64,000 nucleotides of DNA from Stratiformator vulcanicus. Its GTDB lineage: Bacteria; Planctomycetota; Planctomycetia; Planctomycetales; Planctomycetaceae. How positions within the stretch are numbered: position 1 is the first letter of the stretch; every line of letters begins with the position of its first letter. The notes beneath the pieces are model-generated. The model searched no databases, was not told the origin of the DNA, and saw only the letters and a list, made by a program, of their open reading frames with translations. The stretch spans positions 1,507,640 through 1,571,639 of the forward strand of contig NZ_CP036268.1 of the NCBI RefSeq assembly GCF_007744515.1, written 5' to 3'. This document shows positions 34,720 through 56,260 of this stretch, one piece after another. A program made the translations under genes and the position numbers.

Positions 34720-36405
34720 ATGAAAACCGCACTGCCTCTTCTCGTATCGCTGTTCGCAATTCTCGGGTCCCCATTCGCCGTAGCGAACGAGCGACCGAAC
34801 ATCCTGTGGATCTATGTCGAAGACATGTCTCCGTGGATGTCGTGCTACCAAGACAGCGTCGTCGAGACGCCGCACATCGACGCGCTCGCGGAGCAGGGCG
34901 TCAAATTCGATCGTTTCTACACGCCGGCCGGTGTCTGCTCAGCCACGCGATCCGCGTTAATTACCGGGATGTGGCAGACGACGATCGGCGCTCACAACCA
35001 TCGTTCCAGCCGGGCCTGGTTCCGCGGCAAAAAGATGGAGGACTACGACGCGATCAAACTCCCCGAAGAAGTTCTTCCGATCCCTGCCATTCTTAAAGAT
35101 GCCGGCTATTTCACATTCAATCAGGGAAAACTTGATTACAACTTCGAGTTCGATCGGGACAACCTCTACTCGTATCTCGAGGAGAAAAACGGATTCTACG
35201 GCGGCAAAGAGTGGAAGAAGAAGGGGCGGGCTCAACCGTTCTTCGGGCAAATCCAATTGAAAGGCGGCAAGAACAACGGCAAGGTCTCGCCGAAGACCGA
35301 CCCCGACAGCGTGACCGTCCCGCCTTACTACCCGGACCACCCCATTTACCGAGAGGAAATCGCCTTTCATTACGACTGCATTCGTCAGACCGATGCCGAG
35401 GTCGGCGACATTGTGGCCGCCTTAAAACGGGACGGGCTGTATGACAATACCGTAATTATCTTCTTCACCGATCACGGCATGAGATTGCCTCGACACAAAC
35501 AATTCATTTACGAGGGCGGCATTCATGTTCCGCTGATCATCGCGGGGCCGGGCGTCCCCTCTTACTCCTCAGACCCAGCCGTAGTCATCGTTCAGATCGA
35601 AGGTTTGAAATCAATTAAAGTGAACGACCGAGACACCGGTCTCGCCGAACTGCCGAAGGCGATTCAAGAGGTAACGTCAGATACCTCGCTGCCGGTCCTG
35701 ATCAGGGGCGGCGGAAAGATTCCCTACGGGACGGTGGCCAAAGTCATTCAATCAGTCAACGCGGCCGGATTTAAGAACGTCCGCATCTCCGCCCATGACA
35801 AGGCCCCCGCCGATGCGCCGGCCGGGACTAAGGTCCGACACGATCTCGTCAGCGGAATTGATCTCGCCGCAACCACGCTCGCTCTCGCCGGTGAGGCCGT
35901 GCCTGAGTGGATGCAAGGGCGAGACTTATTCGCCTCGGATCATCAGCCCCGTAAATTTATTGCCGCGGCTCGCGATCGTTGCGATTACACGATTGACCGC
36001 ATCCGCACGATCGTGACGAAAGACTTTCAATACCTGCGCAACTTTAAGACGGACCGACCCTATCTGCAGCCGCAATACCGCGACGGACGGCCGTCGATGG
36101 AGATTCTTAAGGAGCTATATGCAAAGGGCGAACTCAATGAGACTCAGGCCCGATTTGTCGGCCCCTATCGTCCGGCCGAAGAATTGTACGACCTACGCAG
36201 CGACCCGGATGAAATCCACAACCTCGCCGGCGACCCGCAATACGCCGACGAGCTTGCCCGTCATCGATCTCTACTCGCAGATTGGATCGAACAGACCGAC
36301 GATCAGGGCCGCTATCCCGAATCGGACGACGGGTTAAAGGCGACGCTTCAACGGTGGGGCAAGAAAGCGGTCAATCCCGAATACGATCGCGTCCGCGACA
36401 ATTAA
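34720..36405 (+). CDS. formylglycine sulfatase with an inserted ExbD/TolR-like domain
   Basis: 561 residues from ATG 34720, with GGAAGG upstream and a signal peptide. The sulfatase fold is complete at both ends: NILWIYVEDMSPWMSCYQ, the Cys-type formylglycine site CSATR (Cys73), FFTDHGMRLPRHKQFIYEGG in the middle, and AARDRCDYTIDRIRTIV, PAEELYDLRSDPDEIHNLAG at the end. Between AGPGVP and AGTKVRHDLVSGIDLAATT about 86 residues (DNA 35560-35817) are foreign: VVIVQIEGLKSIKVND, LPVLIRGGGKIPYG, VIQSVNAAGFKNVRIS. These match the periplasmic C-terminal domain of ExbD/TolR proteins. It hydrolyses sulfate esters outside the cytoplasm if the insertion is tolerated. Confidence 0.9.
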   Translation: MKTALPLLVSLFAILGSPFAVANERPNILWIYVEDMSPWMSCYQDSVVETPHIDALAEQGVKFDRFYTPAGVCSATRSALITGMWQTTIGAHNHRSSRAWFRGKKMEDYDAIKLPEEVLPIPAILKDAGYFTFNQGKLDYNFEFDRDNLYSYLEEKNGFYGGKEWKKKGRAQPFFGQIQLKGGKNNGKVSPKTDPDSVTVPPYYPDHPIYREEIAFHYDCIRQTDAEVGDIVAALKRDGLYDNTVIIFFTDHGMRLPRHKQFIYEGGIHVPLIIAGPGVPSYSSDPAVVIVQIEGLKSIKVNDRDTGLAELPKAIQEVTSDTSLPVLIRGGGKIPYGTVAKVIQSVNAAGFKNVRISAHDKAPADAPAGTKVRHDLVSGIDLAATTLALAGEAVPEWMQGRDLFASDHQPRKFIAAARDRCDYTIDRIRTIVTKDFQYLRNFKTDRPYLQPQYRDGRPSMEILKELYAKGELNETQARFVGPYRPAEELYDLRSDPDEIHNLAGDPQYADELARHRSLLADWIEQTDDQGRYPESDDGLKATLQRWGKKAVNPEYDRVRDN

Positions 36406-41091: not shown

Positions 41092-42396
41092 TCAGCTTTC
41101 CGGCGTCGTTGTTGCCTCCACTGGTTCGCGTCGAAGAACTCCAGATTCATTAAAGGACACGCTGGCAATATCGCCGACCGTGTTCGGTTGCTCCACCGGA
41201 TCGAGAGCTAGCGGCTCGAGCTTACTGATTTCGCGAGCCGCGTCTTTGTGATGGAGGTGGAAGTAGTGCTGGGTCATCGCCGGATCATGGTGCCCCATCC
41301 ACGACATGGCTGTTTGCTGGCTGACACCCTGACGGATCGCCTCACTGCAGAAGTGATGTCGGAACGAATGAAGCCGCCCTTTGGCGAGAAGCCTGTCGTC
41401 GGGAAACTCATCAAGGATCGGTCGGAGCGCTTTGGCAACGAACTGTTCCCGCAGCCGATCGGGACGGAGTTTGTGACCGCTTGCAGTCCGGAAAACATAT
41501 CCGGGAGAATCTGTCCGAAGGCGTTCAAGAATTGGCCGAAGTTCCGGGTGGATCGGAACCTCCCGGCTCTTACCGTTCTTTGTTCGTCTGGTTGATGAGT
41601 CCCCGGAATTCCCGGTTTCACTCACCACTCGGATAAGGTTTCGTTGCAGATCAATGTCTTCGGCTCGCAGGTCAACAAACTCGCCGATTCGAAGACCGGT
41701 CCGAGCAAGACCCAAAATGATGTCAGCGAGCCACGTGAGACCCGCTGTATTCCGACAGTGCTGGATCATCGCGGCGACCTGCTGCCGCGTGTAGCTGTAG
41801 GTGGGAGAGGCGGCTGGTTTAGGTAACTTAACTTTAAGTTCTCAACCGTCAGGTGCCATCCCTCGTTCGGGGAGGAACTTCACAAGTTGCTTAAGCAGGG
41901 TCAATTCTAGGTAGACCGTCTTCGGCTTGGCTCCGGCCTTGCTTCGTGAGTCAGCGTAGTGATCCGCCTGGCGCTCCCGGAACTGTCCCCAATGGCTGAG
42001 CTTTTGCAGATGGCAGTATCGCGTGATGTGATCGAGAGCTGCGCGGTATCTTTTCTTCGTCGAAGGACGAACTCCACCGGTTGCTTCACCGCGTCCAATA
42101 TAGTCGCGGAATGCATCGATCCCGACCTCGATCGAGACAAATTCGAAGCCCGAATTTGGGACATCACGCGGATCGAGTATCCCGTGCTGTATCGCCATTG
42201 CCTGGTCAAGAGCGGTAACGGCATTTCGAGCGTCTTCTAGACTTCGGGTTCCGAGCGAGTGCTTACCGAGCGACGGGTGATTTCCGCGGCCATCGGCATA
42301 CCACAAGCCGTTGTCACGCTGAAAGAGCCGCCATACGTAGTAGCTAGCGTTAATCTTCAGCCTCTTCGGGCTGGGCTTCTTTTGAGACTTCTTCAT
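41092..42396 (-). pseudogene. tyrosine recombinase (integrase) interrupted by one TGA
   Basis: One reading frame from ATG 42396 to the stop at 41092, broken only by TGA at 41842-41844. The first part (184 residues) holds the N-terminal DNA-binding and SAM-like core domains (STKKRYRAALDHITRYC, LLKQLVKFLPERG). The second part resumes in the same frame (ELKVKLPKPAASPTYSYTRQ) and carries the catalytic set: Arg in ARTGLRIGE, HSFRHHF, GHHD and the Tyr in MTQHYFH. The stop may be a TGG-to-TGA or CGA-to-TGA change. The element's integration next to tRNA-Ser fits a genomic island. The full-length protein would need read-through. Confidence 0.9.
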
Positions 42397-46564: not shown

Positions 46565-47893
46565 TCAGGAGCGCTTCTTGACGTTCCTGTTCACATCTGC
46601 ATACCAGTGTTTCAGTAGAGATAGGAGGTCCTTGACCAACTCTGGGTGTGCCGCAGCAATATCGTCCTTCTCTCCAAGGTCGCTGCTTAAATTATACAAA
46701 GAGGGGTTGGAAAAGGATTTGTCGGTCACTAACTTGAAATCGCCCTTCCTGATGGCTAATTGATTCCGGACTCCCCAGAAAAGAGGTCGATCTGACAGCT
46801 GTTTGTTCTGAAACAGGTACGGCAGGAGGTCGATACCATCCAGCGTAACGTCTTGAGGCAAAGCAGCGCCACTGATTGCGGCGATAGTGGGCAAGAGATC
46901 AGAACCCATTGCCGGGAGATCGGACGTCTTGCCTTTCTCAATCCTTCCCGGCCAGCAGGCAATCGCTGGCACGCGGTGTCCTCCCTCCCAAATCTGCCCC
47001 TTCTTTCCTCGTAGTGGACCCGCGGAGCCAGGGCCGGCTGGCCCGTTGTCTGAAAAGAAGAAGATAAGCGTGTTGTCGCTTATCCCTGCGTCAACAACAG
47101 CTTTTCGGATACGCCCCACACCCTCGTCCATTACTTCAATCATTTCTTTGTAGACCGCCGGTGTGACCGGATCCTTGGTTCTGCCTCTTCCCGGTTGGTA
47201 ACGCGGCGGATCCTTGCGACCCTGATATGGATAGTGCGGAGCCTCATGGGGGAGATAGAGTAAGAACGGCCTGTCCTTGTTGTGTTGAATGAAATCAACT
47301 CCATGATCTGTGATAAGGTCAGTTGTGTATCCGGTTTCCGGAGACAGCTTATCCTGTTTCCACCAGTCTTCTTTGCCGGTCTGGTCGAGGTGGGCATGGT
47401 AGTCAACGTTGCCGCTCACAAACCCGATGAATTCATCGAATCCCTGACGAACGGGATTGTAATCTGCATTGTAGCCCACATGCCACTTGCCAAATAGAGC
47501 GGTGGTGTATCCAAGTGGCTTAACAACCTCCGCGAAAGTCGTTTCTTGAAGATCCAATCCCGTATGGCGATGTCCTTTTGCGGTAACTACACCTGTGATG
47601 CCAGTGCGCTGCTGATATCGCCCCGTCAACAGGGCCGCTCGTGTTGGACTGCACACTGCACCGTTGGAGTGAAAGTCGGTGAAGCGGATGCCGTCCGCAG
47701 CTAGGGCATCAATGTTTGGTGTCTTGAATCTCTTGCTCCCGTAACATCCCACATCGGCATACCCCAAGTCATCGGCGAGGATAATGATGATGTTGGGCTT
47801 CCGAGTTTCACTATCGGCCAGAAGAGACGCTGGAGCCATAGCCGTGAGAGCAGTGGCACCAGCGATCGCAATGAATTGTCGTCTGTTTCGCAT
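46565..47893 (-). CDS. formylglycine sulfatase (integron cassette gene)
   Basis: 442 residues from ATG 47893, with GGAGAAG upstream. A Tat-like signal (RNRRQFIAIAGATALTAM) is followed by NIIIILADDLGYADVGCYG, the formylglycine site CSPTR (Cys81), TTALFGKWHVGY, FFFSDNGPAGPGSAG and GKKGQIWEGGHRVP. It is a complete S1-family sulfatase, probably periplasmic, related to N-acetylgalactosamine-type enzymes. An anaerobic or aerobic formylglycine-generating enzyme must be elsewhere. A metabolic sulfatase is an unusual cassette cargo. Confidence 0.92.
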   Translation of the reverse strand: MRNRRQFIAIAGATALTAMAPASLLADSETRKPNIIIILADDLGYADVGCYGSKRFKTPNIDALAADGIRFTDFHSNGAVCSPTRAALLTGRYQQRTGITGVVTAKGHRHTGLDLQETTFAEVVKPLGYTTALFGKWHVGYNADYNPVRQGFDEFIGFVSGNVDYHAHLDQTGKEDWWKQDKLSPETGYTTDLITDHGVDFIQHNKDRPFLLYLPHEAPHYPYQGRKDPPRYQPGRGRTKDPVTPAVYKEMIEVMDEGVGRIRKAVVDAGISDNTLIFFFSDNGPAGPGSAGPLRGKKGQIWEGGHRVPAIACWPGRIEKGKTSDLPAMGSDLLPTIAAISGAALPQDVTLDGIDLLPYLFQNKQLSDRPLFWGVRNQLAIRKGDFKLVTDKSFSNPSLYNLSSDLGEKDDIAAAHPELVKDLLSLLKHWYADVNRNVKKRS

Positions 47894-54547: not shown

Positions 54548-56260
54548 ATGACAAAGCCTCTTTCGGGACTGCTCGCATTCGTATTCGCGACCTCAGCCTT
54601 GGCCGGGCCGATCGTCCACGACGCCGAGTACTACGTGCTCGAAGCGCAGAACGGAAAACGCTGGGCAGCCGAGGACGACGGACTGCGGGCCCGGCTCTCC
54701 GCCCTGCGCGAGAAGTTCGGCACGCCACCGAACATCGTGCACATCATGTGGGACGATACCGCTTACGGTGACGTCGGCATCCCCGCGATCCAGAAGGTCC
54801 GCGGGCTCGACACGCCGCATCTCAATCGGATGGCCCGCGAAGGCATCCTCTTCACAAGAATGTACACCGAGGTCGGCTGCACGCCGAGCCGTGCTGCCTG
54901 CATGACCGGCCGGCATCCGATCCGCAACGGGATGTACAACATCGGCATGCTTCGCGAGAGCCACGGACTGCGGGCCGAAGAGGTCACTTTGGCCGAAGTC
55001 CTTTCAGGGGCGGGTTACGCCACGGCTTTTCACGGGAAGTGGCACCTCGGCGACATCGAAGAAAGCTACGCCCACCTGCAGGGCTTCGACGAAGCGTTCT
55101 TCACGGGTTACAACCAGATCCTCTCACTGTGGACGCGTCAGGCCGAACAGGCGAATGCCACGATGGGCCTGTTCGAAGACCTGCTGCCGTCCGATCCCTA
55201 CAAGCTGGATGACACTTTCATCACCAAAGGCTGGGTGACGGTACTGGAGGGCACGAAGGGCGGAGCGGCGCGGCAATGGCTCGACAACAGCTACGCGACG
55301 TACGAGAAGATCGATGCGGAGGCTCAAGACCGCACGATCGCGTTCATCGAGAAGAAAGCAAAGGCCAAGCAGCCGTTCTATGTGGCCAACTGGCCGATGA
55401 TGGCCTCGTTCATGCCGACCGCAAAGAAGGTGTCGCAGGGTCGAAGCCTGTTGCAGGACGGGCTCCAGGGCAACGTCGATCCGTTCGTCGGTCGGGTCAT
55501 GGAAGTGCTAAACGACCTCGGGATTGCCGAGAACACACTCCTCGTCTGCATGGCCGATAACGGCCCGATGGCCCACAACCCCCCGCCCGGCTGCGGTTTT
55601 GCCGAGACAATCTTCCGCGGCGGCAAGGGGGACTTCCTTGAAGGCGGCGTCCGAGTCCCGGCGCAGGCATGGTGGCCGGGCACGATCGAACCGGGTCAAC
55701 TCGTGGGGGACATCATCCACGAAGTCGATCTGTTCACGACCTTCGCATCACTGGCCGGGGCGACTGATGCGATCCCGGCCGACCGAGTCATCGATGGAAT
55801 TGACCAGACGGCACTGCTACTGAACGGTGACACCCACAGCCGGCGCGACTACGTCTTCATTTATGCGGGGCCGAATCTCGGGGCCACAGTGAAGGGACCG
55901 TACAAGCGGCACTGGATCACCTCCGACCCGATCGGCGAAGGGAGCGGGATTGCGGCCGGCTTCTTCTTCCTGCCGTCAGACACGCGCGAAAAGAGTCCGA
56001 TGTTGGTCAACTTGATTCACCTCAAGACTCCGTTCAATCGGATGCGGATTCGCCACGAACTCTGGAAGAAGAAGTACCCGGATTCCCCGGAAAAGCACGG
56101 CATTCCGTGGACCGGTATCGCCAACGCAACTCCCGAGGTGAAGGCACTGGCGAGTCCTCCCGCCGTCCTGAAGGCACTCCCGTTCGATCCGCTCGAGTAT
56201 GTCGAACACCTCGACGAACTGCCTTTTGACCCGCAAGCGGACCCGGATTTCGGTGAGTAA
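54548..56260 (+). CDS. secreted arylsulfatase
   Basis: 570 residues with a signal peptide (LSGLLAFVFATSALAG). The sulfatase core starts after an ~55-residue N-terminal extension: NIVHIMWDDTAYGDVGIPA, then the formylglycine site CTPSR (Cys111), ATAFHGKWHLGD, CMADNGPMAHNPPPG, and FRGGKGDFLEGGVRVPAQAW. It should hydrolyse an aryl or carbohydrate sulfate in the periplasm. First gene of a plus-strand operon with DUF3302, HlyD, phosphatase and decarboxylase-like genes. Confidence 0.94.
   Translation: MTKPLSGLLAFVFATSALAGPIVHDAEYYVLEAQNGKRWAAEDDGLRARLSALREKFGTPPNIVHIMWDDTAYGDVGIPAIQKVRGLDTPHLNRMAREGILFTRMYTEVGCTPSRAACMTGRHPIRNGMYNIGMLRESHGLRAEEVTLAEVLSGAGYATAFHGKWHLGDIEESYAHLQGFDEAFFTGYNQILSLWTRQAEQANATMGLFEDLLPSDPYKLDDTFITKGWVTVLEGTKGGAARQWLDNSYATYEKIDAEAQDRTIAFIEKKAKAKQPFYVANWPMMASFMPTAKKVSQGRSLLQDGLQGNVDPFVGRVMEVLNDLGIAENTLLVCMADNGPMAHNPPPGCGFAETIFRGGKGDFLEGGVRVPAQAWWPGTIEPGQLVGDIIHEVDLFTTFASLAGATDAIPADRVIDGIDQTALLLNGDTHSRRDYVFIYAGPNLGATVKGPYKRHWITSDPIGEGSGIAAGFFFLPSDTREKSPMLVNLIHLKTPFNRMRIRHELWKKKYPDSPEKHGIPWTGIANATPEVKALASPPAVLKALPFDPLEYVEHLDELPFDPQADPDFGE

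Follow-up and report, generated by a model that had tools for sequence, protein, structure and literature searches.

What is a periplasmic domain of the ExbD/TolR type doing in the middle of a putatively secreted sulfatase, and how did it get there? These questions are raised by a gene of Stratiformator vulcanicus that lies in a stretch of 64,000 nucleotides, called the window below. ExbD/TolR proteins have an N-terminal membrane helix with a proton-handling aspartate. The guest belongs to an envelope motor and the host is a polysaccharide enzyme, two systems that are not related to each other. Whole domains are found inserted within an enzyme fold less often than joined to its end. Each part is familiar; a sulfatase with an inserted ExbD domain appears to be a new combination. 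The gene has the following features:

34720..36405, + strand: sulfatase gene, 561 amino acids, signal-peptide-like N-terminus (open frame, Pfam, hydropathy)
34795..35559, + strand: N-terminal part of the sulfatase fold, residues 26-280 (PF00884 at residues 26-281)
35560..35820, + strand: inserted ExbD/TolR periplasmic domain without membrane helix, residues 281-367 (PF02472)
35821..36402, + strand: C-terminal part of the sulfatase, residues 368-561 (SGSH_C 363-404; S1_8B alignment)

The host sulfatase

The frame beginning at 34720 runs uninterrupted through 561 residues to the stop ending at 36405, in agreement with an earlier, sequence-only reading of this DNA that had called it open throughout. 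Pfam matches over cut-off follow each other along the protein as Sulfatase (residues 26-281), ExbD (285-359) and SGSH_C, the last being a partial match with its best stretch at 363-404. PF00884 reaches 107.8 bits against a cut-off of 25, which identifies the host as carrying an S1 sulfatase domain. A signal peptide is suggested by eye from a hydrophobic start ending in AVA-NE, and a hydropathy scan places the strongest hydrophobic window at residues 4-22, with a 19-residue hydropathy of 2.08 at the N-terminus and 1.43 at best beyond it.

Residues D35, C73, R77, K137, D251, H252, and K260 are invariant across the aligned sulfatases (n = 18). C73-S-A-T-R77 fits C-x-(P/A)-x-R, the pattern of formylglycine sulfatases, C73 presumably being the cysteine that matures to formylglycine; both C73 and R77 are present in 18/18 sulfatases. 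S1_8 proteins take the first five places among the PDB sequence matches, by which the host is a candidate S1_8 sulfatase. The closest solved sequence, S1_8B (PDB 9bbd), an enzyme of a lambda-carrageenan pathway, shares the fold class and aligns with residues 19-278 and 371-556 at E 6.9e-127, the second stretch pairing with S1_8B residues 309-494, but it lacks any equivalent of the inserted domain between them. Its substrate is a 2-O-sulfated galactose (PMC12549532). A full-length model (seven rows) has a mean pLDDT of 56.5, i.e., low confidence; its sulfatase part matches sulfamidase 4mhx_A with Z 24.5 over 268 residues at an rmsd of 3.4, and the model, weak as it is, retains the sulfatase fold.

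Reality and limits of the insertion

Comparison with relatives places the insert at residues 281-367 (DNA 35560-35820), which makes 87 residues. The start proposed earlier, residue 281, stands, and the end moves from about 366 to 367, one codon further. Sulfatase matches at E 1e-30 or better are found in 150 of the 170 family genomes (own included), with at most eight candidates scored per genome; this threshold was used because matches split at the insert, so that a family search at E 1e-100 found only the own gene. The loop has 97 residues here versus 9-14 in 29/29 aligned family relatives, these being the loci retrieved from a longer list of matches, and in none of the 29 is there a counterpart of the insert. 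In the best relative (G063), the DNA matching query residues 9-280 (20431-19592) directly abuts that matching residues 368-560 (19591-19016), and both halves are 54-58% identical to it. The proposal that the flanks join seamlessly as one sulfatase is borne out.

A real insertion is shown at the level of sequence comparison, with its boundaries at domain ends, the sulfatase positions intact, and the ExbD membrane helix absent. Its GC3 and codon usage are ordinary: GC3 is 0.667 compared to a mean of 0.686 for flank windows of equal size, and among 135 chunks cut from 28 long open frames of the window, one of them the sulfatase, its codon usage ranks at the 36th percentile.

Identity of the inserted domain

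The likeness to ExbD/TolR noticed in the sequence-only reading withstands profile comparison. PF02472 gives 33.8 bits (E 4e-8) for the insert alone and 29.1 bits for the whole protein, against a cut-off of 25.4. The NCBIfam TolR model matches with E 4.7e-7 and 30.5 bits, far under the cut-off of 127.3 set for that full-length model. The ExbD match covers profile positions 51-126 of 128 and hence begins past the membrane helix, which is also not seen in the hydropathy of the fusion (1.43 vs 2.08 at the N-terminus). The insert starts at the linker before the first core strand and, beyond the final strand, runs out in a short tail.

A profile was built from 26 native ExbD periplasmic domains, leaving aside the window's own copy and three near-duplicates. 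The insert reaches 63.9 bits against it; 18 of the 26 natives stay below that value once they themselves and their close kin are taken out, a comparison that slightly favours the insert, for which no row was omitted. By these scores the insert is, as far as its sequence tells, an intact ExbD domain that has not decayed. The resemblance is not due to chance. Its best identity in the native set is 33% over aligned columns, and its best local match reaches 40% over query residues 15-79 (G003).

A single-sequence model of the insert (mean pLDDT 73.7) has the order strand, strand, helices, strand, helix, strand. In VIA-align, ExbD chains come out on top (Z 6.1, 6.0, and 5.7; best rmsd 2.2 over 63 residues) with unrelated chains close behind (Z 5.7 to 5.0), and Foldseek gives no significant match for the insert (best E 0.27); the structural likeness of the modelled insert to ExbD is only suggestive. 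The periplasmic domains of TolR and ExbD (PDB 5by4, 8pek, 8p9r, 8vgd) have their sequence profile and their strand and helix order in common with the insert, but the insert lacks the membrane helix and the N-terminal swapped arm, and sits within an enzyme. By alignment it spans about TolR residues 58-137 (chain numbering converted); compared directly with the sequence of solved TolR, it matches only marginally (E 0.018).

Distribution of the fusion

The same chimera was looked for in relatives, as had been proposed, and no second sulfatase-ExbD fusion is found in 170 family, 392 phylum, and 397 class genomes, which are overlapping sets, the phylum and class samples not exhausting those groups. 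An order-level search covered the 170 genomes again. Within the family, the insert has matches at E 0.01 in 26 of 170 genomes (own included), 29 of them outside its own genome: 27 are native ExbD with a membrane segment, and the remaining two (L052 and L064) lie in open frames of 119 and 137 residues. In the phylum sample, 6/392 genomes match at E 1e-4, and in the class sample, for which a longer query with flanks was used, 4/397 match at E 1e-6; besides the window's own gene, these are native ExbD genes. A contig scan restricted to close relatives, in which the own record is possibly absent, returned one distant sulfatase. The genus is represented by one genome in the searched set, and the fusion is seen in that genome only. 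Among the papers listed by searches of an open-access library, which covers few subscription papers, none shows an ExbD-sulfatase fusion.

A proposed passive binding module

The in-frame ExbD/TolR domain in the loop of this secreted sulfatase is tentatively read here as a binding or anchoring module with peptidoglycan as the likeliest target, a reading held with somewhat less than even confidence. According to it, a complete ExbD/TolR-type periplasmic domain would have entered the sulfatase loop in frame, in this lineage alone within the searches made. Both halves of the sulfatase would have been retained, and the enzyme would still fold and act, either in the periplasm or on the surface of the cell. 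By analogy with the free domains, the insert would be a passive binding module, which would probably hold the enzyme in the cell envelope by contacting the glycan strands of peptidoglycan; self-association via the inserted domain would be the next likeliest role.

Peptidoglycan is proposed because its glycan strands are bound in vitro by the periplasmic domain of ExbD and by a shortened core of TolR. The ExbD periplasmic domain contacts peptidoglycan glycan chains transiently (PMC10771500). TolR(60-133), a construct freed of the arms that swap between subunits, binds peptidoglycan, an ability that the intact strand-swapped domain conceals (PMC4646322). The parallel is partial, since the N-terminal arm is missing from the insert, whereas the C-terminal strand (TolR 133-139), which the construct does without, is present. 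Placement in a loop within an enzyme may prevent formation of the two-fold ExbD dimer.

If the guest binds peptidoglycan, the protein would be an example of how bacteria can fix a digestive enzyme in place within their envelope, and it would provide an ExbD core without the N-terminal arm in which binding is measurable. If the guest binds nothing, it would be a clean natural case of a tolerated domain insertion.

Alternative explanations

The latter case, a real but functionless insertion in which the loop tolerates a folded domain, the sulfatase is unaffected, and the ExbD part is idle, follows closely in probability. We think, by analogy, that an anchoring or self-associating role is the likeliest function, and that a functionless tolerated insertion is about as likely. 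The loop is variable in length among the 29 relatives (9-14 residues), and the fusion is known from one genome, the only one of its genus in the set, both of which would suit an idle domain; on the other hand, the insert resembles ExbD no less than native domains do. It is also far from every sampled ExbD (33% over aligned columns, 40% over residues 15-79), an argument against its having come from one of them very recently.

A coupling of the sulfatase to an ExbB/TonB-type motor through the inserted domain is very improbable. ExbD periplasmic domains are described as dimerising and capturing a TonB strand (PMC10907165), and the three ExbB-ExbD-ExbD clusters of the genome could supply a partner. 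The sequence-only reading had suggested that the insert, as a proton-motive-force transducer domain, might tether the enzyme to such a machine. A tethering role may still apply, but a transducer is not supported: the fusion has neither the membrane helix nor a second strong hydrophobic stretch, no ExbB match lies in the window, and TonB_C is missing from the genome matches. None of the eight genomic ExbB matches (0/8) falls in the window, none is found among 10 nearby proteins scanned, and the fusion gene does not lie beside exbB or tolQ. TonB_C has no match in the genome at E 0.1, a search confined to this TonB family; its control, made on 14 named genomes, found TonB_C in 4, including E. coli. 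By its predicted topology the inserted domain cannot itself transduce proton-motive force or be a motor subunit, because the ExbD membrane helix is absent. Two of the further ExbB matches of the genome lie in loci L105 and L106. With three ExbB-ExbD-ExbD clusters but no TonB_C match, the motors of this organism may serve another partner.

Large insertions can harm an enzyme, and the gene might be a sulfatase losing its function on the way to a pseudogene. This is very improbable, about as much so as motor coupling: all 561 residues are read without stop or frameshift, the catalytic positions are invariant, and the identity of both halves to the G063 relative is 54-58%. An assembly artefact, i.e., a piece of an ExbD gene joined into a sulfatase, would likewise give a fusion in one genome only, but it is very improbable too, given a single-contig genome of 5,228,745 bases (5.23 Mb) that is 98.74% complete, the need for two joins that are both in frame and at domain ends, and the lack of a second copy of the insert DNA in the genome to misjoin.

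Origin of the domain

Recent recombination from a near-identical ExbD gene, which the sequence-only reading had considered, finds no support in the genome. The 261 bases of the insert match in full only themselves, the next match being 22 bases long (E 0.014), and six other genomic ExbD genes share 8-16 identities with the insert over 70-76 aligned columns, at most about 21%. With no second DNA copy and with six ExbD genes that are too dissimilar, a donor elsewhere in the genome is rejected. The search for a phage or plasmid donor gave no tblastn match at E 0.01, and an exact 26-base pattern of the insert has no match in viral contigs. The direct words at the joins give no mobile-element signature, the longest shared one having 7 bases; among 297 random pairs, 79 shared exactly 7 bases and 45 more than 7. 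The longest inverted word at the joins has 9 bases (raw length).

The six other ExbD genes over cut-off form three clusters, each of one ExbB and two ExbD, and the sulfatase insert is the sole ExbD-like sequence over cut-off outside these clusters. One ExbB gene (L104:3088-4029; own genome C1 3847587-3848528, minus strand) is not followed by an ExbD gene and is flanked by a TPR-protein gene and by thiS/thiG-like genes (names other than ExbB read from sequence). In two relatives (L107, L108), a TPR gene and an ExbB gene, with identities of 32-34% for the former and of 61 and 62% for the latter, are directly followed by an ExbD gene of the group called L050-type here. In three more distant genomes (L116-L118), an ExbB relative (43-46%) is followed by an L050-type ExbD, and these ExbD genes are the best class-search matches of the insert (L075-L077). 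Since the L104 ExbB is without the ExbD that follows in relatives, the insert could be the periplasmic part of a native ExbD that moved here from behind the TPR-ExbB pair, where no ExbD is left. Such an origin is unlikely on balance; it is possible but unproven, a lead and not a result. The L050-type genes, including those that follow the TPR protein and ExbB in L107 and L108, are native ExbD with a membrane helix, unlike the insert.

Among seven ExbD groups, the L050-type group scores best for the insert with 48.8 bits, the next reaching 41.7, in a group-profile test that classed 35 of 37 natives correctly (41 less near-identical rows) and may favour bigger groups. Several results tell against relocation. 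In leave-one-out, 14 of the 15 L050-type members score 91.5-121.6 bits vs 48.8 for the insert, and the insert is 28% identical to the L107 ExbD, whereas the ExbB is 61% identical. In the tree, AU p is 0.158 for a clade of the insert with the L050-type group and 0.497, 0.507, and 0.312 for clades with three other groups; none of the four clades is rejected, those with the other groups fit no worse, and the tree does not settle the donor group. Nine other relatives (L109-L115, L119, L120) have an L050-type ExbD without such an ExbB in the stretch retrieved, and therefore the pairing is not general. If true, the relocation would mean that a motor subunit was broken up and that its outer half now serves to anchor a sugar-processing enzyme in the envelope.

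Surroundings of the gene

Besides sulfatases, synteny with the two nearest relatives amounts to one weak dehydrogenase match, so that orthology by place is not supported. The promoter scan found 0 sites with 0.8 expected, and the terminator scan found 2 with 2.4 expected. Two further sulfatase-like frames of the window, 46565-47893 and 54548-56260, match sulfatases of relatives, and the genome-wide ExbD search gave no ExbD match in either. A phage-integrase-family protein is encoded at 41092-41769, about 4.7 kb downstream of the sulfatase; within 41092-42396, the frame adjoining the integrase may, by eye, be its N-terminal part. Distant relatives of the sulfatase are encoded in nine loci of the viral collection (L078-L086, tblastn), three of which (L078-L080) have the same match figures.
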